From the NCBI GenBank assembly GCA_030706405.1, contig JAUZOO010000003.1, forward strand, positions 1-64,000: DNA of 64,000 bases, given 5' to 3'. Source of the DNA: Bacteroidota bacterium. GTDB lineage: Bacteria; Bacteroidota; Bacteroidia; Bacteroidales; JAAUTT01. Made by a program: the position numbers and the translations under genes. This document shows positions 53,271-64,000 of the stretch, piece after piece (position 1 is the first letter of the stretch; each line of letters begins with the position of its first letter). Under the pieces are notes generated by a model. That model ran no database searches. It was not told where the DNA came from and saw only the letters and a list, made by a program, of their open reading frames with translations.

Positions 53271-53756
53271 ATGACTGCAATAGAATTTGAATATAAACTT
53301 ATCGATCTACAGGGAACTATGATGAGGTTTGCTTATCGCTTAACTGCTAATAAGGAAGACGCTCAAGATCTGGTGCAGGAAACCTTTCTGAAAGCTTTGA
53401 GATGTTACAAACAATTCATCTATCAGTCTAATCTTAAAGCCTGGGTATTCACAATTATGAAAAATACTTTTATTAATAATTACAGGCATGGTATCCGTCT
53501 GAATATATACCGTGATCAGACTAAAATTAATCAACTAAAATCTACAAGTCTGGACGATCCGGATTCAGCTTATTCAGCTTTGGAAATAACTCAAAATATT
53601 GAACAATTAAAAGATATTTTACGAATACCTTTTAAAATGCATATTAATGGATATAAATACAAAGAAATTGCCGAAGAACTTCACCTAAACATTGGAACTG
53701 TAAAAAGTAGAATTTTTCTATCACGAAAACGGTTGATGGATCAACTGAGCGTTTAA
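53271..53756 (+). CDS. ECF RNA polymerase sigma factor
   Basis: 161 residues with region 2 (MMRFAYRLTANKEDAQDLVQ, ETFLKALRCYKQF, LKAWVFTIMKNTFINNYR) and region 4 (YKYKEIAEELHLNIGTVKSR, FLSRKRLMDQL). There is no adjacent membrane anti-sigma gene. Region 4 starts with a shortened linker (DILRIPFKMHI). It is preceded by the shared motif at 53161, so it could be part of, or the head of, that regulon. It lies at the start of a run of general-stress-type genes. Confidence 0.9.
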   Translation: MTAIEFEYKLIDLQGTMMRFAYRLTANKEDAQDLVQETFLKALRCYKQFIYQSNLKAWVFTIMKNTFINNYRHGIRLNIYRDQTKINQLKSTSLDDPDSAYSALEITQNIEQLKDILRIPFKMHINGYKYKEIAEELHLNIGTVKSRIFLSRKRLMDQLSV

Positions 53757-54036
53757 AATATAGCTTGTGCAGGACGATCCAATATAGCAATGTTTGGATA
53801 ATGTAATATCAACGACATAACCACATGCAGTTGCAACCGGCTATTAATTCTAACATTAATAACAATTACTTATCCTAGGAACTGTAATTATGGATGCAAA
53901 CGTATTCGACTTCAATTGTTTTCTTATCAAAAAAATGAACTCATTATGCAAATTTTAAAAAAGAGGAACCTTTTTTGGGGAAAATATCAAGTATATTTTC
54001 ACTAGCAAAATTTTGTCTCATCTTAAAAAAGACATC
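53757..54036. other. Intergenic region between sigma factor and CsbD-like gene
   Basis: 280 bp without a convincing gene. The shared motif found ahead of the sigma factor is not repeated here. Confidence 0.5.
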
Positions 54037-54219
54037 ATGAATACTAATGTAACAGGATATTGGAACGAGAAAAAAGAAAAACTCAAACAAAAATTTCCAA
54101 TCATTATTGATGAAGATTTACACTTTCGTGAAGGCAAAGAAAAAGAAATGATGGAAATGCTGGGCTATAAACTGGGGAAAACAAAAGAAGAATTACGCAA
54201 TATTATTACAACATTATAA
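54037..54219 (+). CDS. CsbD-like general stress protein
   Basis: 60 residues from the ATG at 54037 (MNTNVTGYWNEKKEKLKQKF); a TTG 24 bp upstream (54013) is in frame but less likely. It is hydrophilic and charged, with DLHFREGKEKEMMEMLGYKL and GKTKEELRNII, the Bacteroidetes CsbD-like pattern in which the repeat KLKQKFP...L is followed by a REGKEEE stretch. CsbD proteins accumulate in general stress, with unknown molecular role. Confidence 0.75.
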   Translation: MNTNVTGYWNEKKEKLKQKFPIIIDEDLHFREGKEKEMMEMLGYKLGKTKEELRNIITTL

Positions 54220-54330
54220 TTGAGGTAATACATACCAAAGTATTTACTTCAATTAATTTCTTTTTAGAAACAATTAATTAGAACCCCTATATACTATTCC
54301 TTTACGCCACTACAAACACTCCATTTTCAG

Positions 54331-54429
54331 TTACTTGATAAAAAACTAAAAGAATCGGAGATGCGTTATCGGCGATTGCTTGAAACAGCAAAAGGCGGGA
54401 TAATGATCGTGGATAATGAATATTCGTAA
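54331..54429 (+). pseudogene. PAS-domain fragment of a lost sensor protein
   Basis: A 33-codon open stretch reads LDKKLKESEMRYRRLLETAK then GGIMIVDNEYS and a TAA. This is the helix-linker and first strand of a PAS domain in histidine kinases (xESExRYRxLLETAxDGI). The rest of the domain is gone. It lies between the CsbD-like and methyltransferase-like genes. Confidence 0.6.
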
Positions 54430-54443
54430 TTTCGACTTGAATA

Positions 54444-55193
54444 ATGACTAATATTTCGTACAATAATCTCCTTAAAAGAATTTATCATTTTCTTATACTC
54501 TTGGTGTCAATGGCTGGATATGTGCCCAAAAATGCGACAATACTCCGGACAATAGCATTATTTTTTTCCATTGCTTTTACAATATATTTAGTCAATTACC
54601 AGCCTGATAATTTTCATTTAGCTGTTTGGTATTTCATTCTTAACGAAGTTTTTTATTTAAGTTTTATAACGATTGTCCTTTCAGAAAATGGTCTCCGTCA
54701 TTGGTTTATTAGAAAATGGGGTAATGAAACTGAAGGATATTTAGCTTATGAAGCAATACTTGGGTTTCTTTTTTACCATAACCAACTCAGCATTGGATAT
54801 ATTACGTCGTCCAGCCCCGAAAGCTTATTTCTCGTTATTTATGAGGAATATTTACTGATTATACTTGCAATACCGTTTATATGTGGTTTTGTAATAAAAA
54901 TATGGGCAGCCAAAGTAGTAACTATCGAAATTTATTATTGGAAAGACATGTTTTTGGGAAAAAAGATTTCTGACTTTGTTGTTGCCGGCCCTTACAAATA
55001 TTTTAGTAATCCTATGTATGGGCTTGGACAGCTTCAAGCTTATGCTACAGCACTTTGGTTTGGATCAAAATATGGTCTGATAGCGGCCTTTTTAAATCAA
55101 TTTTCTATTTTTCTATTTTTTTATCTGGTAGAGAAAAAGTTTATTCAAAGGGTTTATCAGAAAAAAGGTTTACAACCTATCCCGATTCAATAA
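54444..55193 (+). CDS. PEMT/ICMT-like membrane methyltransferase
   Basis: 249 residues with about seven hydrophobic helices. The SAM-binding signature of the isoprenylcysteine / phospholipid methyltransferase group is near the C-terminus: DFVVAGPYKYFSNPMYGLGQ followed by a helix and the pair VEKKFIQRVY. The N-terminal helices are unrelated to characterised members. Possible substrates are lipids or prenylated compounds, not determinable here. Confidence 0.75.
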   Translation: MTNISYNNLLKRIYHFLILLVSMAGYVPKNATILRTIALFFSIAFTIYLVNYQPDNFHLAVWYFILNEVFYLSFITIVLSENGLRHWFIRKWGNETEGYLAYEAILGFLFYHNQLSIGYITSSSPESLFLVIYEEYLLIILAIPFICGFVIKIWAAKVVTIEIYYWKDMFLGKKISDFVVAGPYKYFSNPMYGLGQLQAYATALWFGSKYGLIAAFLNQFSIFLFFYLVEKKFIQRVYQKKGLQPIPIQ

Positions 55194-55251
55194 ACAACAA
55201 TAAACAATCCCTCGTAGGTTATCTTCGCCATAGCCGCAACCCCAATACCAA

Positions 55252-55289
55252 AATGTATGAATCATATAAATCTGTTACGGAATTGTATA
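55252..55289 (+). promoter_or_regulatory. Shared stress-type upstream motif, copy C (lmo0937-like gene)
   Basis: Starts ATGTATGAATCATATAAA with AATTGTATAA at motif positions 29-38, 54 bp before the small membrane protein start. Confidence 0.55.
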
Positions 55290-55342
55290 ACGGTTCTGCA
55301 GGAACAATAGTATACCTTTATCCTAAAATCTATAATTATAAA

Positions 55343-55504
55343 ATGACATCAAAAATATTGTTTATTGTCGGTTTACTTATGATTATTGCTTGGGCTATAG
55401 GTTTCTTGGGGTTTCATACAAATGAAACTATACACATACTGGGTATAATCACAGTTATTCTTTTCTTGATAAGCCTTCTCTACAATAAACCATTTATGCG
55501 ATAA
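55343..55504 (+). CDS. lmo0937-family small membrane protein
   Basis: 53 residues from ATG 55343 to TAA 55504, with two hydrophobic helices: KILFIVGLLMIIAWAIGFLG and HILGIITVILFLISLLY, then a basic tail NKPFMR. The central WAIGFLGFHTNETIHIL fits the lmo0937 / DUF5670 family. These short membrane proteins are common in Bacteroidetes and Firmicutes and have no known role. The longer frame from 55055 through the upstream region overlaps the methyltransferase gene and is not real. Confidence 0.8.
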   Translation: MTSKILFIVGLLMIIAWAIGFLGFHTNETIHILGIITVILFLISLLYNKPFMR

Positions 55505-55585
55505 TTTCCTCTTTACTTCAATAGTCACATACTTGTTTACTAGTTGAGTTGGAGTGTTTCTTTCGTAATGGTTAAAAATAAAAAA

Positions 55586-56164
55586 ATGAAGCTCTATATT
55601 AAAAACATGGTATGTAGTCGTTGCAAAACGACCGTAAAATCCGAATTGGAAAAGATAGGTATTCAATATGTTACTGTAGAATTAGGAGAAGTAAATACAA
55701 CGAAAAAAATAACATCGTTACAACGTTCGCGATTATATGATGCATTGCAAAAACACGGATTTGAATTGATCGACGAACAAAAAAATGATCTTATTGAAAA
55801 ATTAAAAAGTACTATTGTTGATTTGGTGCATCATTCGGATGAAGATTTGAAAACAAACTTTTCGGATTACATTAGTCTGAGTGTAAACGACAACTTCATT
55901 TCCTTAAACACACTGTTTGCTGAAATAGAAGGCATGACTATTGAAAAATACATTATTAAACATAAAATTGAACGGGTAAAGGAATTACTCGTGTACGATG
56001 ATCTCAACCTTGCCGAAATTGCGCTTAAAATGCATTACCGCAACGTAGCACAATTATTCAGCCAGTTTAAAAGTATAACCGGCCTGACGCCTTTGCATTT
56101 CAAGCAACTCCGGCACGTCAGGAACAGCGGTTCGGTTATGTCTACAGATAATCTCCAGCGATGA
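55586..56164 (+). CDS. HMA-like / AraC-type HTH fusion regulator (CxxC-containing)
   Basis: About 192 residues from ATG 55586. In-frame upstream codons back to 55544 are less likely, since the paralogue at 62791 starts at the same MKLYIKNM. Residues 1-75 look like a heavy-metal-associated (HMA) ferredoxin-like unit: KLYIKNMVCSRCKTTVKSEL with a CxxC pair, then VELGEV and FELIDEQ. Residues about 90-190 carry an AraC-type HTH (IKHKIERVKELLVYDDLNLA, EIALKMHYRNVAQLFSQFKS, TGLTPLHFKQL). Metal or redox sensing through the CxxC is inference. The stop overlaps the next gene, a histidine kinase, by 4 bp. Confidence 0.8.
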   Translation: MKLYIKNMVCSRCKTTVKSELEKIGIQYVTVELGEVNTTKKITSLQRSRLYDALQKHGFELIDEQKNDLIEKLKSTIVDLVHHSDEDLKTNFSDYISLSVNDNFISLNTLFAEIEGMTIEKYIIKHKIERVKELLVYDDLNLAEIALKMHYRNVAQLFSQFKSITGLTPLHFKQLRHVRNSGSVMSTDNLQR

Positions 56165-57066
56165 ATTCTAAACAACATCATATTTTGAATAGGTCAAAAT
56201 TTCTTAAAGATAATGCTGACAGTAAAACCAGAAGTTCAAAATTGGACTTATCTGCCGTTATTGCCAATAACAACAATGCGTTGAAAAATCATTTTATGCT
56301 ACGATTACAGGAAATGGAAGAACTCAATGTCCATTTGGAAAATCTTGTCGAACAGCGTACCCAAAAACTAATCGACGTTGTGGCAACAAATTCTAAATTT
56401 ATGTCTATCCTGGCGCATGACTTAAGAAGCCCATTCTGCTCTATTTTAGGTGTCTTGGAAATATTAAATGAAACATTGGACGATTATGACATCAATGAAA
56501 TAAAAAAGTATATCGACACGGCTACTAATTCAGTAAATAATACCTTAAACCTTCTTGACGATCTTTTAGCGTGGACTATGTCGCAAAATAAAGAGAAGAG
56601 CTTCAATCCGGTCAAAATTAATTTATACGAATTATTAAGAGACGAGGTGGGAAGTATAAATACCTCAGCCACACAAAAGCAAATAGCCCTAAATTATTTT
56701 ATTGCCCCAAACTTAAATATTAGTGCAGATATTCAGATGGTTAGAACAATACTTCGCAATTTAATCAGCAACGCTATAAAATACACAAACACTGGCGGCG
56801 AAATAACTGTAACTGCATCCGAAAACAATCAATTTATTGAAATAGCTGTAAAAGATAATGGTATTGGAATTCCATTCGAGGCACAAAGAAAAATTTTCAA
56901 ACGAGATGAGATTAATTCAACTCCAGGTACCAACAATGAAAAAGGTACCGGCTTAGGACTATTACTTTGCAAAGAATTTGTTGAAATGCACGGCGGAGAT
57001 ATCTGGATAGAAAGTGAACCGGGAAAGGGAAGCGAATTTAAATTTACATTACCACATTATTTATAA
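56161..57066 (+). CDS. Cytosolic sensor histidine kinase
   Basis: 301 residues, no membrane helix. A coiled-coil stretch (about 45-75) leads into HisKA with the phospho-accepting His86 in SILAHDLRSPFCSILG, then HATPase_c with NLISNAIKYT, KDNGIGIP and EKGTGLGLLLCKEFV. No receiver-domain protein is encoded nearby; the gene is translationally coupled (ATGA overlap) to the HMA-AraC regulator instead. It may act with a distant regulator, or on the regulator beside it. The usual stimulus domain is absent. Confidence 0.9.
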   Translation: MNSKQHHILNRSKFLKDNADSKTRSSKLDLSAVIANNNNALKNHFMLRLQEMEELNVHLENLVEQRTQKLIDVVATNSKFMSILAHDLRSPFCSILGVLEILNETLDDYDINEIKKYIDTATNSVNNTLNLLDDLLAWTMSQNKEKSFNPVKINLYELLRDEVGSINTSATQKQIALNYFIAPNLNISADIQMVRTILRNLISNAIKYTNTGGEITVTASENNQFIEIAVKDNGIGIPFEAQRKIFKRDEINSTPGTNNEKGTGLGLLLCKEFVEMHGGDIWIESEPGKGSEFKFTLPHYL

Positions 57067-57133
57067 TAAGCTGAAAAATAATACTTTACATACAATCCAT
57101 TCAACTTAGTACCCTCAAAACACATTAACACAC

Positions 57134-57487
57134 ATGAAAACAACGGATGATAAAACGAACCAGCGTCACCTTCAGAAAGGTAATGAGGAGAAAAATAATT
57201 TTTCAGGATACCCGCTATATCCCGAAAGTGAAGATATTTATCGTAAATTACAGGAAGATAAAAGTGTAGACCCGGAGGATACCTCTAAAGTTAAAATTTC
57301 AAATGAAAGCGATGGAACAAATAACGAAAAAGATTTTAATGATGATGTATCCGGAGGCGATTTAGATATTCCAGGCTCAGAACTGGATGACAATCAGGAA
57401 ACTGTTGGAAGTGAAGATGAAGAGAATAACTATTACAGTTTAGGAGGAGACAACCATAACGATCTGGAAGAAAACCATGAAAAATAA
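57134..57487 (+). CDS. Acidic low-complexity protein, unknown function
   Basis: 117 residues, strongly acidic and Asn/Asp/Glu-rich (DGTNNEKDFNDDVSGGDLDI, SELDDNQETVGSEDEENNYY), with a small conserved-looking YSLGGDNHNDLEEN tail. Probably disordered. No domain is recognised. Its 3' end overlaps the start of a 30-residue membrane protein by 11 bp, so the two are likely translated together. Such genes near UspA/PPK2-type stress genes are seen in Bacteroidetes. The role is unknown. Confidence 0.7.
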   Translation: MKTTDDKTNQRHLQKGNEEKNNFSGYPLYPESEDIYRKLQEDKSVDPEDTSKVKISNESDGTNNEKDFNDDVSGGDLDIPGSELDDNQETVGSEDEENNYYSLGGDNHNDLEENHEK

Positions 57488-57569
57488 CACCACCGGATAT
57501 TGGCTGCTGCTGGTTTTGGGACTGGGAATGTTGGCTGCCGGTTGCTGGCTTTTGGTGATTAGCTTTTAG
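57477..57569 (+). CDS. 30-residue single-helix membrane protein
   Basis: ATG 57477 to TAG 57567-57569, reading MKNNTTGYWLLLVLGLGMLA then AGCWLLVISF. It is one hydrophobic helix with a short polar N-terminus. It overlaps the upstream acidic gene by 11 bp in another frame and is followed by the UspA gene. The hydrophobic run and gene overlap support it; homologue data are needed. Confidence 0.5.
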   Translation: MKNNTTGYWLLLVLGLGMLAAGCWLLVISF

Positions 57570-57609
57570 CTCTTCACCTTTGGGTATTGGGCATTAATTT
57601 TAACACACA

Positions 57610-58101
57610 ATGACCATGAAAACAACGAAGATGAAAAAAGTACTGATAGCGCTGGATTATGATCCAACCGCACAAAAAGTTGCTGAAGTAGGGTTTTCAT
57701 TAGCTAAAACTATGGATGCTGAAGTTGTATTGCTGCATGTAATATCCGACCTCGTGTATTATTCTTCAACCGAATATTCTCCGATAATGGGGTTCTCCGA
57801 TTACATGGGCGTGAGTCCATTGCAATTAAATAGTGTTGATGGACTGAAAGAAGCAGCTCATCATTTTCTTGATAAATCAAAACGCCACCTTGGCGATAAA
57901 ACCATTCAAACCGTGGTAGAAGAAGGCGATTTTGCTGAATCGATATTAAAAGCTGCCAAAGACTTGCATGCCGATATTATTGTTATCGGTTCTCACAGCC
58001 ATAAATGGTTGGAAAATATAGTCATGGGAAGTGTAACCGAAAATGTATTAAGTCACACTACGATACCGCTTTTTATTATTCCAACCAAGAAGCACAACTA
58101 A
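57610..58101 (+). CDS. Universal stress protein (UspA family)
   Basis: 163 residues, single Usp domain: KKVLIALDYDPTAQKVAEVG, the strand AEVVLLHVISD, and the C-terminal ADIIVIGSHSHKWLENIVMG followed by SVTENVLSHTTIPLFII. The nucleotide-binding Gly pattern is only partly kept (GSHS in place of GxxG), so ATP binding is uncertain. An ATG pair begins the gene (57610 or 57616). Followed by PPK2 28 bp on, a pairing typical of energy or starvation stress. Confidence 0.92.
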   Translation: MTMKTTKMKKVLIALDYDPTAQKVAEVGFSLAKTMDAEVVLLHVISDLVYYSSTEYSPIMGFSDYMGVSPLQLNSVDGLKEAAHHFLDKSKRHLGDKTIQTVVEEGDFAESILKAAKDLHADIIVIGSHSHKWLENIVMGSVTENVLSHTTIPLFIIPTKKHN

Positions 58102-58129
58102 CTAATAATTAAGAAATAAAACCGAAACG

Positions 58130-58993
58130 ATGGACATTAGCAAATATAAAATCGAGCACAATTCGAATTTTAAGCTTTCTGACATTGAGACCGATCAAAC
58201 CGGAAAGTTTGATTCAAAGGATGAAGCCGAAAGGCAACTTGCCCAAAACGTGCAACGAATGGAAGAGCTTCAAAGTAAGCTTTATGCCCAGGATAAATAT
58301 GCGCTGTTAATCATATTTCAGGCCATGGATACAGCCGGGAAAGACGGGGCTATCAAACATGTGATGTCGGGATTAAACCCGCAAGGCACGCACGTACACA
58401 GTTTTAAGCAGCCATCCGCGGAGGAATTGGATCACGATTATTTGTGGCGTGCTGTCAAAAATCTTCCGGAACGTGGAACCATCGGTATTTTCAACCGTTC
58501 GTACTACGAAGATGTTCTGGTTGTCCGTGTTCACGATCTGGTAAAAACCCAACAAATTCCGAAAGAATTTATTACCGATGATATCTGGAAAGACCGTTTC
58601 CGCCAGATCCGTGATTTTGAACGGTATCTTTATGAAAATGGAATCATCACCCTGAAATTTTTCCTGCACATCTCAAAGGACGAACAGAAGAAACGGCTGC
58701 TTGAACGCATTGACGACAGAATCAAAAACTGGAAGTTTTCTACTGCCGACATCCACGAACGAGAATATTGGAATGACTACCAACGCTGTTATCAGGAAAC
58801 AATTGCCGAAACAAGCACCAAGCAAGCCCCTTGGTATGTTATTCCTTCTGATAAAAAGTGGTTTGCCCGTTTAATGGTTTCGGAAGTAATTGTTAAAACG
58901 CTGGAATTGTTAAGACTGGAATATCCATTCGTTAGCAAGGAACAGGAAAAAATATTAAACGAATGCAGGCAAAACCTTTTAAATGAGGAGTAA
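58130..58993 (+). CDS. ppk2: Polyphosphate kinase 2 (PPK2) family
   Basis: 287 residues with the single-domain PPK2 fold. Walker A is IIFQAMDTAGKDGAIKHVMS, the substrate region is NPQGTHVHSFKQPSAEELDH, and Walker B is GTIGIFNRSYYEDVLVVRVH. It ends with LRLEYPFVSKEQEKI. PPK2 enzymes transfer phosphate between polyphosphate and nucleotides; whether ADP/GDP or AMP is preferred cannot be read. Polyphosphate would supply energy or buffer phosphate in stress, consistent with the UspA neighbour. Confidence 0.92.
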   Translation: MDISKYKIEHNSNFKLSDIETDQTGKFDSKDEAERQLAQNVQRMEELQSKLYAQDKYALLIIFQAMDTAGKDGAIKHVMSGLNPQGTHVHSFKQPSAEELDHDYLWRAVKNLPERGTIGIFNRSYYEDVLVVRVHDLVKTQQIPKEFITDDIWKDRFRQIRDFERYLYENGIITLKFFLHISKDEQKKRLLERIDDRIKNWKFSTADIHEREYWNDYQRCYQETIAETSTKQAPWYVIPSDKKWFARLMVSEVIVKTLELLRLEYPFVSKEQEKILNECRQNLLNEE

Positions 58994-59177
58994 TATGAAG
59001 GGAGCTTTGTTATTATTTATTTCATTTTAATTGTGTTTAACATATAGTTGCATACTATCTTATTGATATATTTACAGACAATAAACCCGTAGCTATTAAA
59101 AAATCCATAATACTACGAACTAAAAAGTATGTTTTGGATATAATTATAAGGCTGGTAATCTATATAAACCTGTTAAA

Positions 59178-62111
59178 TTGAACACCCAAAAGCTGAAATC
59201 GGCTGTATCGTCAAAAGAAAAACCATCGGATCTCACTACCGATCAGTTTCCCATAGTTTGCATTGGCGCATCGGCCGGCGGACTGGAAGCATTGGAACAA
59301 TTTTTAGGCAATGTGCCTGAAAACAGTGGCATGGCATATATTGTCATCCAACACCTGGATCCTACCCAAAAAGGAATGTTACCCGAATTGCTTCAGCGGA
59401 TTTCCAAAATGACCGTTTATCAGGTAACAAACCGCATGGCGGTAAAACCCAACTGTGTGTATGTAATTCCGCCCAACAAGAGCATGACTATAATGAAAGG
59501 GGCGCTTTATTTGCATGAACCCATAGAAATAAGAGGACTACGCCTTCCGATAGATTTATTTTTACGCTCACTAGCCGACGACCGTCGCGAACTTGGTGTT
59601 GGTGTCATACTTTCGGGCATGGGCTCCGATGGTAGTGCCGGCGTACGAGAATTGAAAGATAAAAACGGCATAGTGATGGTTCAGGAACCCGGCACAGCAA
59701 GATTTGACAGCATGCCCCGCAATGCCATCGATTCGGTGCCCGTGGACATCGTAGCTCCAGCCAATGAGTTGCCAGCAAAACTCATCGACTTTCTTAAATA
59801 TATTTCCTCTGTCAAATCAGATGTGAATATAGAGTATAAGGACAATAGCACTCTGGGAAAAATTGTTAACCTCTTGCGAACCCATACCGGTAATGATTTT
59901 TCGTTATATAAAAAAAACACCCTGTATCGCCGAATCGAAAGGCGCATGGGCATCCACAAAATAGATAAGATATCTTCGTACGTCAGTTTTTTGCAGGATA
60001 ATCCCAAGGAAGTGGATATTCTCTTTAAAGAACTATTGATTGGCGTAACTAATTTTTTTCGTGATGCCAACGTATGGGAAAAGTTGAAAGACTCGGTTAT
60101 CCCATCAATTATTGCCAGCCATCCAGAGGGTTCAATATTAAGGGCTTGGGTATCGGGTTGCTCTACCGGCGAAGAGGCTTATTCCTTAGCTATGGTATAT
60201 AAGGAAGTGCTTGAAAAATTTAACCCGCACAGAAGTATATCCTTACAAATATTTGCTACAGACCTCGACAATGAAGCCATTGAGACAGCCAGAAAAGGCA
60301 TATTTCCAGCCAATATTGTTGCCGATGTGTCTCCCAATCGACTGAGCCGGTTTTTTAATGTTATCGAAGGTGGCTATCGCATCAATTCTGAAATCAGGGA
60401 GATGATTGTGTTTGCCCCACATAACCTTATCGCGCATCCGCCTTTTACCAAAATCGACATTCTTACGTGCCGCAATTTGCTAATCTATATGGATACCGAA
60501 TTGCAAAAGAAAATACTGGGACTATTTTGTTATAGTCTGAATCCTGAAGGAATTATCGTGCTTGGAAGTGCCGAAACACTTGGAAAACAGAGTAACCTTT
60601 TCACGCCGATAGATACCAAATTGAAAATATACAAACGCTCTGGCACTACCTTGACACCTGAATTATTTGATTTCCCATCTTCATTTTCCCGAAGCAAACC
60701 TACCAATATTGAAAAAAAAATACCAGTTCAATCAATTATGAATATTCAAACACTTGCCGATCAACTTTTGTTACAGCATTTTTCACCTCCCGGTGTTTTA
60801 GTCAATGAAAATGGCGATATCATTTATATCAGCGGACGCACGGGGAAATATTTGGAACCGGCAGTGGGTAAAGCAAATATGAATATTTTTGCCATGTTAC
60901 GCGAAGGTTTGCGCAATGAATTCCCGGTAGCTTTCCGCAAGGCCATCATGAAAAAAGAAGCCGTAGTTTTGCACAATATTAAAGTGGGAACAAACGATGC
61001 TTTTCAAACCGTAAACGTTAATATTCAATGGATTGAAAAACCGGAACCATTAAGAGGCATGGTCATGGTTATTTTTTCGGATGTGCAGGAAAATCCGGAA
61101 ATAAAGCTTCGGGCAAAATATGGAAAGAAAACGCTCAACAACATCAAGCAATCGGAGTTGGAATTAGAGTTGCAACGCACACGTGAAGAGGTACAAAACA
61201 CGCTCGAAAAAATGCAAACTTCGCAAGAAGAACTAAAATCGACGAACGAGGAATTACAATCTGCCAATGAAGAGCTTCAGTCAACCAATGAAGAACTTAC
61301 AACTTCAAAAGAAGAAATGCAAAGCCTTAACGAAGAGCTTCAAACCGTAAACGCTGAATTGCAATCAAAGGTGGATGAGTTTTCGCGGGTGAACAATGAT
61401 ATGAAAAACCTGCTCAACAGCACCGATATTGCTACGTTGTTTCTCGACAAGGAATTGAATATCCGTCGCTATACCAATCAGGCAACCAAGATTTTCAAAC
61501 TCATAAAAAGCGATATAGGCCGGCCCTTTACCGACCTTGTTACCGACCTTATTTACCCCGAATTAGCTGCCGATGCTCTCGAAGTATTACGCACGCTCAT
61601 ATTTATTCAAAAACAGATCCCGGCCAAAGACGGACGGTGGTTTTCCATTCGCATTATGCCCTACCGCACTTTTGACGACAGAATAGACGGTTTGGTTATC
61701 ACATTTATCAACACCTCCGATATTAAACAGTTGGAAGTAAAATTAAACGAAACAGAACAAATGCATCGTTTGCTTTTAAATTCAACTCCCAATATAATTG
61801 TCAAATTATCGTCCGATTGGAAGATACAAGAGTTTAATCCCGAAGCTGAAAAGTTTTTCGGCAAAGAGCATAAAGACGTTGTCAATCAGAATTATATTAA
61901 GTTATTCATTCCTGAGCCGGTACAAAAAAAGACGGAAAAAGAAATGGATAAGCTACTGAACGAAGCTACGGATGGTAAGCTCAAAATGCAGGTGTTAACA
62001 GCCGAAGGTAATGCACCGGTTATTGAATGGTCTGTACATCTGCTGCAAAACAATTTAAAAATACCAACAGGAATGATCATTATCACTAAAAACAGCCTCA
62101 GCCATGAGTAA
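59178..62111 (+). CDS. CheB-CheR-PAS fusion signalling protein
   Basis: 977 residues. The start is a TTG at 59178; no ATG lies nearby. CheB methylesterase (about 25-210) has its catalytic set: IGASAGGLEALE with Ser32, VIQHLDP with His, and SGMGSDGSAG with Asp. CheR methyltransferase follows (about 225-495): LRAWVSGCSTGEEAYSLAM for SAM binding, IFATDLDNEAIE and CRNLLIYMD. A long coiled coil of EEL-Q-S repeats (about 657-735) and two PAS-type domains (about 745-860 and 865-970) end the protein. There is no receiver and no kinase domain, and no methyl-accepting chemoreceptor is present in this window. Confidence 0.93.
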   Translation: MNTQKLKSAVSSKEKPSDLTTDQFPIVCIGASAGGLEALEQFLGNVPENSGMAYIVIQHLDPTQKGMLPELLQRISKMTVYQVTNRMAVKPNCVYVIPPNKSMTIMKGALYLHEPIEIRGLRLPIDLFLRSLADDRRELGVGVILSGMGSDGSAGVRELKDKNGIVMVQEPGTARFDSMPRNAIDSVPVDIVAPANELPAKLIDFLKYISSVKSDVNIEYKDNSTLGKIVNLLRTHTGNDFSLYKKNTLYRRIERRMGIHKIDKISSYVSFLQDNPKEVDILFKELLIGVTNFFRDANVWEKLKDSVIPSIIASHPEGSILRAWVSGCSTGEEAYSLAMVYKEVLEKFNPHRSISLQIFATDLDNEAIETARKGIFPANIVADVSPNRLSRFFNVIEGGYRINSEIREMIVFAPHNLIAHPPFTKIDILTCRNLLIYMDTELQKKILGLFCYSLNPEGIIVLGSAETLGKQSNLFTPIDTKLKIYKRSGTTLTPELFDFPSSFSRSKPTNIEKKIPVQSIMNIQTLADQLLLQHFSPPGVLVNENGDIIYISGRTGKYLEPAVGKANMNIFAMLREGLRNEFPVAFRKAIMKKEAVVLHNIKVGTNDAFQTVNVNIQWIEKPEPLRGMVMVIFSDVQENPEIKLRAKYGKKTLNNIKQSELELELQRTREEVQNTLEKMQTSQEELKSTNEELQSANEELQSTNEELTTSKEEMQSLNEELQTVNAELQSKVDEFSRVNNDMKNLLNSTDIATLFLDKELNIRRYTNQATKIFKLIKSDIGRPFTDLVTDLIYPELAADALEVLRTLIFIQKQIPAKDGRWFSIRIMPYRTFDDRIDGLVITFINTSDIKQLEVKLNETEQMHRLLLNSTPNIIVKLSSDWKIQEFNPEAEKFFGKEHKDVVNQNYIKLFIPEPVQKKTEKEMDKLLNEATDGKLKMQVLTAEGNAPVIEWSVHLLQNNLKIPTGMIIITKNSLSHE

Positions 62112-62667
62112 CGAAAATCAAAATTTTACAGATGCTCAGATACTGCGCATGAATGCCGAAAAAAAACTCGCCGAGAAGAAAAGGAAAACGGCTGCTCCGG
62201 TAACGGAAACTGATGTAAAAAAACTCCTGCACGAATTACAAGTGCATCAAATAGAGCTAGAAATGCAAAATGAAGAGTTGCGACAAGCAAATGAAACAGC
62301 CGAAGCTGCTCTTAAAAAGTACACGATGTTGTACGATTTTTCGCCAATGGGCTATTTTACCCTCGATTCAGAAGGCAATATCTGCGACCTTAATTTCACC
62401 GGTGCCGAGATGCTGGGTGACAGACGACTTAGTTTGATTAACAGCAACTTTAAACTATTCGTCTCCGAAGATTCACTGCCCGTATTTAATCAGTTTTTAA
62501 ATGAAGTTTATAAGGGTAATTCAAAGGAATCATGCGAAGTGAAGCTTGCTTATGATATTAATTTTTTCCGCTTGGTTTATATGGAAGGCATCGTTACCGG
62601 CGATGACCGGAAATGTCTTATGTCAGTAGTTGATATTTCAAACTTTCAAAAGCAACACAATCCTTAA
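62104..62667 (+). CDS. PAS-domain protein, coupled to the CheB-CheR-PAS gene
   Basis: 187 residues. It starts 8 bp inside the end of the fusion gene (ATGAGTAA overlap). An N-terminal coiled coil (about 10-75: AEKKLAEKKRK, LHELQVHQIELEMQNEEL) leads to one PAS domain (about 75-185: FSPMGYFTLDSEGNICDLNF, LSLINSNFKLFVSEDSLPVF). It has no output domain. The coiled coil may join it to the coiled coil of the upstream protein. Confidence 0.88.
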   Translation: MSNENQNFTDAQILRMNAEKKLAEKKRKTAAPVTETDVKKLLHELQVHQIELEMQNEELRQANETAEAALKKYTMLYDFSPMGYFTLDSEGNICDLNFTGAEMLGDRRLSLINSNFKLFVSEDSLPVFNQFLNEVYKGNSKESCEVKLAYDINFFRLVYMEGIVTGDDRKCLMSVVDISNFQKQHNP

Positions 62668-62790
62668 ATATCAGTTCATTATCATTTCTAAACTATATTA
62701 AGTCATAATATAATCGGGGTTAATTATAAAAATTGTAAATTGCATAGATAGCTTAAAAACGAATGTTATAGGGTTTACTAAAAAAACAGC

Positions 62791-63360
62791 ATGAAGCTCT
62801 ATATCAAAAATATGATAAGTAATCGCTGCAAAATAGTTGTTAAATCGGAGCTTGAAAAACTTGGATTACATTATACAACAATGGAGTCGGGCGAAGTTGA
62901 ACTTTTGGAAAACGTTTCCGCTGAGCTACAGGACCGGTTAAATTTCAGACTAAAAAAACTGGGGTTCTCTCTTCTAAACGATAAGAAGAGCATACTAATT
63001 GAAAAAATTAAAATAATCATTATTGAGCTAGTCTTTTCACAAATAAAACTTAAAACAAACTTTTCCGATTATTTAAGTGCTAAGCTAGATTACGATTATA
63101 CCTATTTAGCCAATCTTTTTTCAGAGAATCAGCACACTACTATTGAACAGTTTTATCTCAACATCAAAATTGAAAGGGTTAAGGAACTACTCATTTTTGA
63201 CGAGCTCAATCTCACCGAAATAGCTTACAAACTACATTACAGCAGTGTGGCACACCTGTCTACCCAATTTAAAAAAATGACCGGCTTAACGCCAACTCAG
63301 TATAAGTTGCTCATACATAAACGGCGCAATCCAAATGAAAAAATAAGTGAATCTTATTAG
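62791..63360 (+). CDS. HMA-like / AraC-type HTH fusion regulator, paralogue without CxxC
   Basis: 189 residues, closely similar to the protein at 55586: KLYIKNMISNRCKIVVKSEL, then IKIERVKELLIFDELNLTEI, YKLHYSSVAHLSTQFKKMTG, LTPTQY. The first Cys of the CxxC is replaced (SNRC), so only one Cys is left in the HMA-like unit. It follows the PAS protein by 123 bp. The pair suggests duplication and loss of the metal/redox site in one copy. Confidence 0.8.
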   Translation: MKLYIKNMISNRCKIVVKSELEKLGLHYTTMESGEVELLENVSAELQDRLNFRLKKLGFSLLNDKKSILIEKIKIIIIELVFSQIKLKTNFSDYLSAKLDYDYTYLANLFSENQHTTIEQFYLNIKIERVKELLIFDELNLTEIAYKLHYSSVAHLSTQFKKMTGLTPTQYKLLIHKRRNPNEKISESY

Positions 63361-63599: not shown

Positions 63600-64000
63600 A
63601 TGAGAAACTTTAAATTAGTTAAGACGTTAATTATCATTTGCTTTTATGGTTTACAATGCACTTTTACCGGACAGGCTCAAGAACCTTTAAAAGATCAAAT
63701 GAAAAGGATTCCAACAAACAAATTTGAATTTAAGCCATTGCCCTATTCTTACGATGCCCTTGAACCTTACGTCGATAAGCTTACCGTAGAAATCCATTAC
63801 AGCAAACACCATAAAGCAGCTTATGACAATTTCATGAATGCTATTAAAGGTACCGAGATGGAATCATTGGATATCATTGATATTTTCCGGAATATAAGCA
63901 AATATCCTATGGCTGTCAGAAACAATGGTGGAGGTTATTTCAATCATGCATTTTATTGGGAAAACATGAAGGCCAATGGAGGAGGGCTTCCAACTGGCAA
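63600..64000 (+). CDS. Secreted Fe/Mn superoxide dismutase, N-terminal part (cut by window end)
   Basis: 133 codons, still open at the window end. An N-terminal signal peptide (about 1-26: KLVKTLIIICFYGLQCTFTG, ending GQAQ) precedes the Fe/Mn SOD fold: LPYSYDALEPYVDKLTVEIH, YSKHHKAAYDNFMNAI with the first metal His and its partner, and GGGYFNHAFYWENM with the second metal His. The last two ligands lie outside the window. It is unusual in being exported, so it would remove superoxide in the periplasm. It lies downstream of the HMA-AraC paralogue and shares its upstream motif with the sigma factor gene. Confidence 0.92.
   Translation, partial: MRNFKLVKTLIIICFYGLQCTFTGQAQEPLKDQMKRIPTNKFEFKPLPYSYDALEPYVDKLTVEIHYSKHHKAAYDNFMNAIKGTEMESLDIIDIFRNISKYPMAVRNNGGGYFNHAFYWENMKANGGGLPTG

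Follow-up and report, generated by a model that had tools for sequence, protein, structure and literature searches.

HMA-AraC regulators are widespread in Bacteroidota and include a putative copper-sensing branch

Two paralogous regulators encoded in a 64,000-nucleotide stretch of Bacteroidota DNA (hereafter the window; NCBI GenBank assembly GCA_030706405.1, contig JAUZOO010000003.1, positions 1 to 64,000 of the forward strand) join an N-terminal domain resembling heavy-metal-associated (HMA) domains to an AraC-type helix-turn-helix (HTH). This HMA-AraC architecture is widespread in Bacteroidota yet unnamed, not rare. We think it fairly probable that such proteins are one-component regulators whose core branch senses Cu(I), with protein 1 of the window as a divergent member and protein 2 as a re-purposed member carrying serine at residue 10 (Ser10). 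The Cys10 form and the Ser10 form are each represented by one protein in the window. A broader proposal, to which we give slightly under an even chance, is that most of the window's class relies on HMA-AraC proteins as its chief sensor of cytosolic copper, in place of CueR and CsoR, and that a large Ser10/Cys13 daughter branch came to work within two-component and stress operons.

A widespread, unnamed family

Protein 1 (192 amino acids, 55586..56164, plus strand) and protein 2 (189 amino acids, 62791..63360, plus strand) both begin with MKLYIKNM and share 49% identity, far beyond chance, which makes them paralogues. Residues 10–13 read CSRC in protein 1 (a candidate metal site, codons at 55613..55624, plus strand) and SNRC in protein 2 (an altered site, codons at 62818..62829, plus strand). 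For protein 1 the list of open reading frames gives a TTG start at 55544, and we adopted the ATG at 55586 because it fits the family. Both proteins carry HTH_18 (PF12833; 55901..56104 in protein 1 and 63073..63306 in protein 2, plus strand), with 45.8 and 60.4 bits against a Pfam cut-off of 33.6, and both are AraC/XylS proteins by this measure. Their DNA-binding unit is HTH_18 rather than a MerR-type HTH, and no MerR or CueR model is among the matches listed at E ≤ 5 for either protein (25 of 26 matches in the case of protein 1). A preliminary description of this DNA had read both frames in these places, with their shared KLYIKNM start and their CSRC and SNRC motifs, and the sequence confirms it; the proposed union of an HMA-like domain with an AraC HTH is likewise borne out, with HTH_18 over its cut-off and an HMA-like fold predicted for both. 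Its mention of two paralogous regulators was right about paralogy but too low in number, since the genome has five members, three of them within ~14 kb of the window's own contig (C15).

HMA-AraC proteins are present in 183/394 genomes of the phylum, including 90/99 in the window's class and 93/295 elsewhere. The 394-genome count scored at most eight candidates per genome, the 99 class genomes were rescored with nearly all candidates, and the kinship order of a partly viewed list (191 rows unseen) served to identify these 99 as all the sampled genomes of the class. Of the class genomes so scored, 6 belong to the window's order, and 3/6 have members, the window's own genome counted. At least 571 stretches encode relatives in a search of genome contigs; judged by record titles, 78 of 80 listed stretches are from Bacteroidota, one (L009) is from Myxococcales and one (L081) from Ignavibacteria. 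L009 has neighbor clusters in common with two Mucilaginibacter stretches (L032 and L083) and may be a misbinned contig. The preliminary remark that the fusion is not a textbook architecture stands insofar as the Pfam and NCBIfam scans made contain no family model for it, but not as a statement of rarity, given the counts above. A description of HMA-AraC regulators was not found in the titles and abstract openings of the searched open-access literature, papers elsewhere and preprints being outside this scope, and passages of PMC10710014 contain nothing bearing on them.

Association with copper export

One paralogue in the same genome, on contig C16, immediately precedes the gene of a P-type ATPase that carries CPC, YN, and MxxSS motifs; no other protein of the genome matches the Cu-ATPase model at E ≤ 1e-100. 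This arrangement recurs across the class: in 50/83 class genomes a high-scoring Cu-ATPase is preceded on its own strand, at a distance of under 3.5 kb, by a family member, and 58/83 have a member within 10 kb. Counted by ATPase, 53/115 have such an upstream member, compared with ~0.1 expected by a crude chance estimate. A Cu-ATPase above cut-off is present in 89/99 class genomes, and the linkage count covers the 115 high-scoring matches in 83 of them; it omits a group at ~480–540 bits (which we take to be CcoI-like), G075, the second match of G094, and matches below cut-off, the last being partly listed.

The same association appears when family members rather than ATPases are taken as the starting point. 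From 227 hits we retained 226 near-full-length and then 222 distinct proteins, a biased sample made up mainly of best matches to the five copies of the window's genome. Neighbor counts rest on 220 of these (147 with CxRC, 67 of the Ser type, 6 other; 2/222 have no gene index). A CopA-like gene lies within three genes downstream of 62/147 CxRC members and 1/67 Ser members (19/41 vs. 0/13 after redundancy reduction at 60%), and a multicopper oxidase within the same distance of 27/147 CxRC members. A member on a Mucilaginibacter plasmid, itself annotated just as "AraC family transcriptional regulator," lies amid genes annotated as encoding a heavy-metal ATPase, a multicopper oxidase, and a copper-binding protein.

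The copper sensors CueR and CsoR are nearly absent from the sampled genomes of the window's class. CueR is above cut-off in 0/394 genomes, with weaker matches in 33 at E ≤ 1e-30, all outside the class. CsoR occurs in 100/394 genomes and in 1/99 of the class, and the single class genome that has it (G075) has no HMA-AraC member. CsoR at 1/99 and CueR at 0/394 therefore make HMA-AraC a candidate cytosolic copper sensor, and would allow it a leading part in copper sensing across the class, in a search that did not include CopY and two-component sensors. Across the phylum sample CsoR is found in 5/183 family-positive genomes (an overlap taken from the lists of genomes). Because CsoR is concentrated in one family, descent confounds this exclusion.

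Variation at the candidate metal site

Residues 10 and 13 are Cys/Cys in 149 of the 222 proteins, Ser/Cys in 67, and other in 6. The preliminary description had named unconserved cysteines in homologues as evidence against its reading; the outcome is mixed, with Cys13 in 219/222 and Cys10 in 151/222. Members in copper neighborhoods are uniform, with Cys10, Cys13, and Phe59 in 86/86. Residue 59, which presumably lies in the loop neighboring the metal site as in HMA domains, is Phe in 20 and Leu in 42 of the other 63 CxRC members, and Leu in 58 and Phe in 5 of the 67 Ser members; proteins 1 and 2 alike have Phe59. Copper neighborhood and Phe59 track the same clades, and a tree-aware test gives no separate association between them. 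Another near-invariant residue, His82 in the linker helix (193/222), is absent from protein 2, and a role for it in switching is possible.

All 67 Ser-type proteins keep Cys13, with Arg directly before it in 64, a pattern that looks like selected change at the site, not decay. The earlier suggestion that protein 2 has lost its site and become constitutive is thus doubtful and too simple. The change at residue 10 needs seven changes on both the 222-row tree and a 207-row tree that drops 15 rows, chiefly long branches. A single origin of Ser10 is nonetheless not rejected by the approximately unbiased (AU) test on a 42-row tree (2 of 44 named rows not found; P = 0.381, or 0.188 without two rows), and we therefore do not claim that Cys10 was lost several times independently.

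Protein 1 forms a pair with L005 (66% identity), which the 42-row tree then joins to seven copper-linked rows with support 94/95. The second HTH of protein 1 is YRNVAQLFSQFKS where the consensus is YSSVAHLSNQFKK, a deviation partly common to L005, which suggests different targets. Protein 2 groups with L086 and L092 from the same genus (support 99/92 in the 42-row tree), both of the Ser type.

Structure predictions and known systems

AlphaFold2 models of protein 1 (mean predicted local distance difference test score, pLDDT, 84.7) and protein 2 (91.5) both have a β-α-β-β-α-β unit in residues 2–62, a long helix to residue 83, and then the HTH domain. The ferredoxin-like fold that the preliminary description had sought by structure prediction is therefore predicted in both N termini. 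Among HMA proteins the best structural match is GolB (4y2i), with Z 8.0 over 60 residues at 2.0 Å for protein 1 (HMA-like domain at residues 1–62, 55586..55771, plus strand) and Z 8.1 over 59 residues at 2.0 Å for protein 2, followed by copper chaperones and ATPase domains. The HTH part gives its highest Z to AraT (6swi) and 3oio. By sequence comparison, protein 1 matches the NCBIfam CopZ model at E = 8.1e-5 over residues 2–60, under its cut-off, and the family profile matches seven HMA domains at E = 2.5e-5 (probability 75%). At the level of sequence, these matches support classing the CxRC form as HMA.

The proteins combine features of two known groups. With HMA copper chaperones and ATPase domains (CopZ, Atx1, GolB, PF00403) they have in common the β-α-β-β-α-β fold, predicted here, and protein 1 also has Met-x-Cys-x-x-Cys after the first strand, whereas protein 2 has SxxC; unlike those chaperones, the window proteins are fused to a DNA-binding domain and fall under the curated HMA cut-offs. 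With AraC/XylS regulators they have in common the C-terminal AraC-type HTH. The usual N-terminal sensor of AraC/XylS proteins is cupin-like; here it would be a ferredoxin-like HMA domain, in a protein of only ~190 amino acids. CueR (MerR type) and CsoR have the role that is presumed for HMA-AraC, cytosolic Cu(I) sensing beside copA, and differ from it in fold and DNA-binding unit. The position of a copA-adjacent regulator, next to the exporter, is that of the C16 paralogue and of members in the 50/83 class genomes above, not of the window proteins.

Proposed function and its alternatives

In the reading we favor, the HMA fold would act as sensor and the AraC-type HTH as output within one protein. 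For the core branch, Cu(I) is probably bound by the CxRC of the HMA domain, and binding would alter the arrangement of HMA domain, helix, and HTH and switch on adjacent copper-export genes (copA, multicopper oxidase), with copA operons as the main targets. A chaperone fold turned sensor might receive Cu(I) straight from other chaperones. The metal, its affinity, the operator, the sign of regulation, and the targets are what we infer from gene order and conserved residues. Protein 1, which keeps Cys10, Cys13, and Phe59, has most likely retained binding of Cu(I) or a similar soft metal, and its targets may have shifted, as its divergent second HTH and the kinase in the same operon would indicate. 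The preliminary idea that one of the two proteins senses metal is thus plausible for this Cys-keeping protein with its copper-branch grouping, the site and the metal being putative. In protein 2 the two-Cys chelate would be gone and Cys13 would remain, and this protein, placed in a signaling/oxidative-stress operon, probably reads a non-copper input such as the redox state of Cys13 or a partner protein. Confirmation of the copper branch would explain cytosolic copper sensing in much of a large class where CueR and CsoR are nearly absent from the sampled genomes, by means of a sensor built from a chaperone fold, and would make the Ser10 branch a natural experiment in turning a metal sensor into something else.

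Several observations weigh against this reading. Other ferredoxin-like chains, which we take to be ACT-type, score at Z 7.0–8.2 in the same structural comparison, with 2qmw (8.2) just above GolB for protein 1; since they score like HMA proteins, fold alone cannot decide for HMA. Protein 1 matches Pfam HMA (PF00403) at E = 0.0022 and 18.8 bits, under the curated cut-off of 24.8, protein 2 has no match to this model, and just 10/66 family members match it at E ≤ 0.01. The family profile matches one CopA HMA domain weakly (probability 9.4%), and a profile of Ser-type N termini alone finds no match to HMA domains (probability 1.6%). The immediate ATPase link is not seen in 33/83 class genomes, and some genomes with a Cu-ATPase match have no family member (e.g., G141, G118, G268, and G377). 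Among close relatives the family is patchy, with members at E ≤ 1e-20 in 15/31 genomes, comprising 5/5 of the genus and 10/26 from other families of the order, and this lowers the probability that we give to the main-sensor proposal. No copper gene is among the recognized neighbors of either window protein, and the 207-row tree next joins the pair of protein 1 and L005 to two Ser rows, with support of only 35. Dyad counts in the upstream regions of 49 copper-linked, 26 other CxRC, and 23 Ser-type non-redundant genes are not above a shuffled background and thus give no shared operator motif. Metal and DNA binding by the family are themselves functions that we infer.

The HMA-like domain might alternatively be only a structural dimerization or protein-interaction module, so that the family answers to kinases or chaperones and the copper link belongs to one branch, an idea that we regard as rather unlikely. 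It would suit the Ser members, which have a hybrid histidine kinase (29/67) or a response regulator (28/67) within three genes downstream, compared with a hybrid kinase in 0/147 CxRC members, as well as the CxRC members that lack a nearby copper gene (47/149 without any marker gene nearby and 13/149 with a cupin or glycosyltransferase). However, the kinase link is largely one clade and falls to 2/13 after 60% redundancy reduction, and the near-universal Cys13 together with the invariant Cys10, Cys13, and Phe59 of copper-linked members is hard to explain structurally. The tree-aware tests that compare Ser10 with kinase or copper neighbors have three supported pairs and hence no power, and Fisher values, which take no account of relatedness, were set aside. 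It is improbable, in our judgment, that the family senses thiol oxidation or reactive oxygen instead of metal, through a CxRC disulfide switch and, in the Ser type, a mixed disulfide of the lone Cys13. Persistence of Cys13 where Cys10 is gone would fit such a switch, as would the superoxide dismutase, universal stress protein, DnaJ with its MerR_2 partner, and sigma-70-family factor around the window genes, but stress neighbors (few markers were checked: superoxide dismutase and universal stress protein) occur in few loci beyond the window's own genome, and the link to Cu-ATPases and multicopper oxidases is strong and repeated. For protein 2 by itself, we see little likelihood of decay into a paralogue that lacks regulated activity: its residues 9, 33, and 82 differ from the family consensus and Cys10 is lost, yet its frame is open, its HTH is over cut-off, its model is confidently predicted, and its gene order is conserved with Ser-type relatives in two genomes of the same genus.

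Genomic surroundings

Protein 1 is followed by a histidine kinase (HisKA and HATPase_c by Pfam; 56161..57066, plus strand) whose first 4 bp, from 56161, are also the last 4 bp of the protein 1 gene; the overlap behind the coupling noted in the preliminary description is thus real. Pfam identifies no sensor domain in this kinase at E ≤ 1e-5. A kinase also lies next to the family member in L005, the nearest relative of protein 1. In L208, from the same genus, a 64%-identical kinase has no family member alongside within the 3.8 kb examined, which speaks against an obligate pairing of protein 1 with the kinase.

Upstream of protein 2 lies a CheB-CheR-PAS protein (59178..62111, plus strand), and downstream a Fe/Mn superoxide dismutase that extends beyond the window end (63601..64000, plus strand; 1601–2344 of L001), both placed there by the preliminary description and identified here by Pfam. 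The 187-amino-acid protein between CheB-CheR-PAS and protein 2 (62104..62667, plus strand), labeled PAS in the preliminary description alone, has zero Pfam matches at E ≤ 1e-5. Its homologue precedes the relatives of protein 2 in L086 and L092, and in L086 the member also follows CheB-CheR, so gene order around protein 2 is conserved. More broadly, window positions 53271–63360 and L001 1601–7600 (contig C15) form a stress-related cluster with three HMA-AraC copies, whose other genes include a sigma-70-family factor resembling extracytoplasmic function factors, a universal stress protein, PPK2, the superoxide dismutase, and DnaJ with a MerR_2 partner.

Other loci of the family show recurrent neighbors of their own. 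Immediately after copper-type members comes a protein of 237–243 amino acids that has an HMA motif (GMTCxxC) in its N-terminal part and is otherwise hydrophobic (L079 6654–7367, also L033, L037, and L066). A cupin gene of ~118 amino acids (L030 6648–7004 and similar) recurs beside non-copper members, at several loci together with a glycosyltransferase. Finally, Ser-type HMA-AraC genes stand in tandem before a hybrid kinase and response regulator in L074, L075, L078, L082, L096, and L115, with two genes in each array except L074, which has three and a further one of 127 amino acids beyond.

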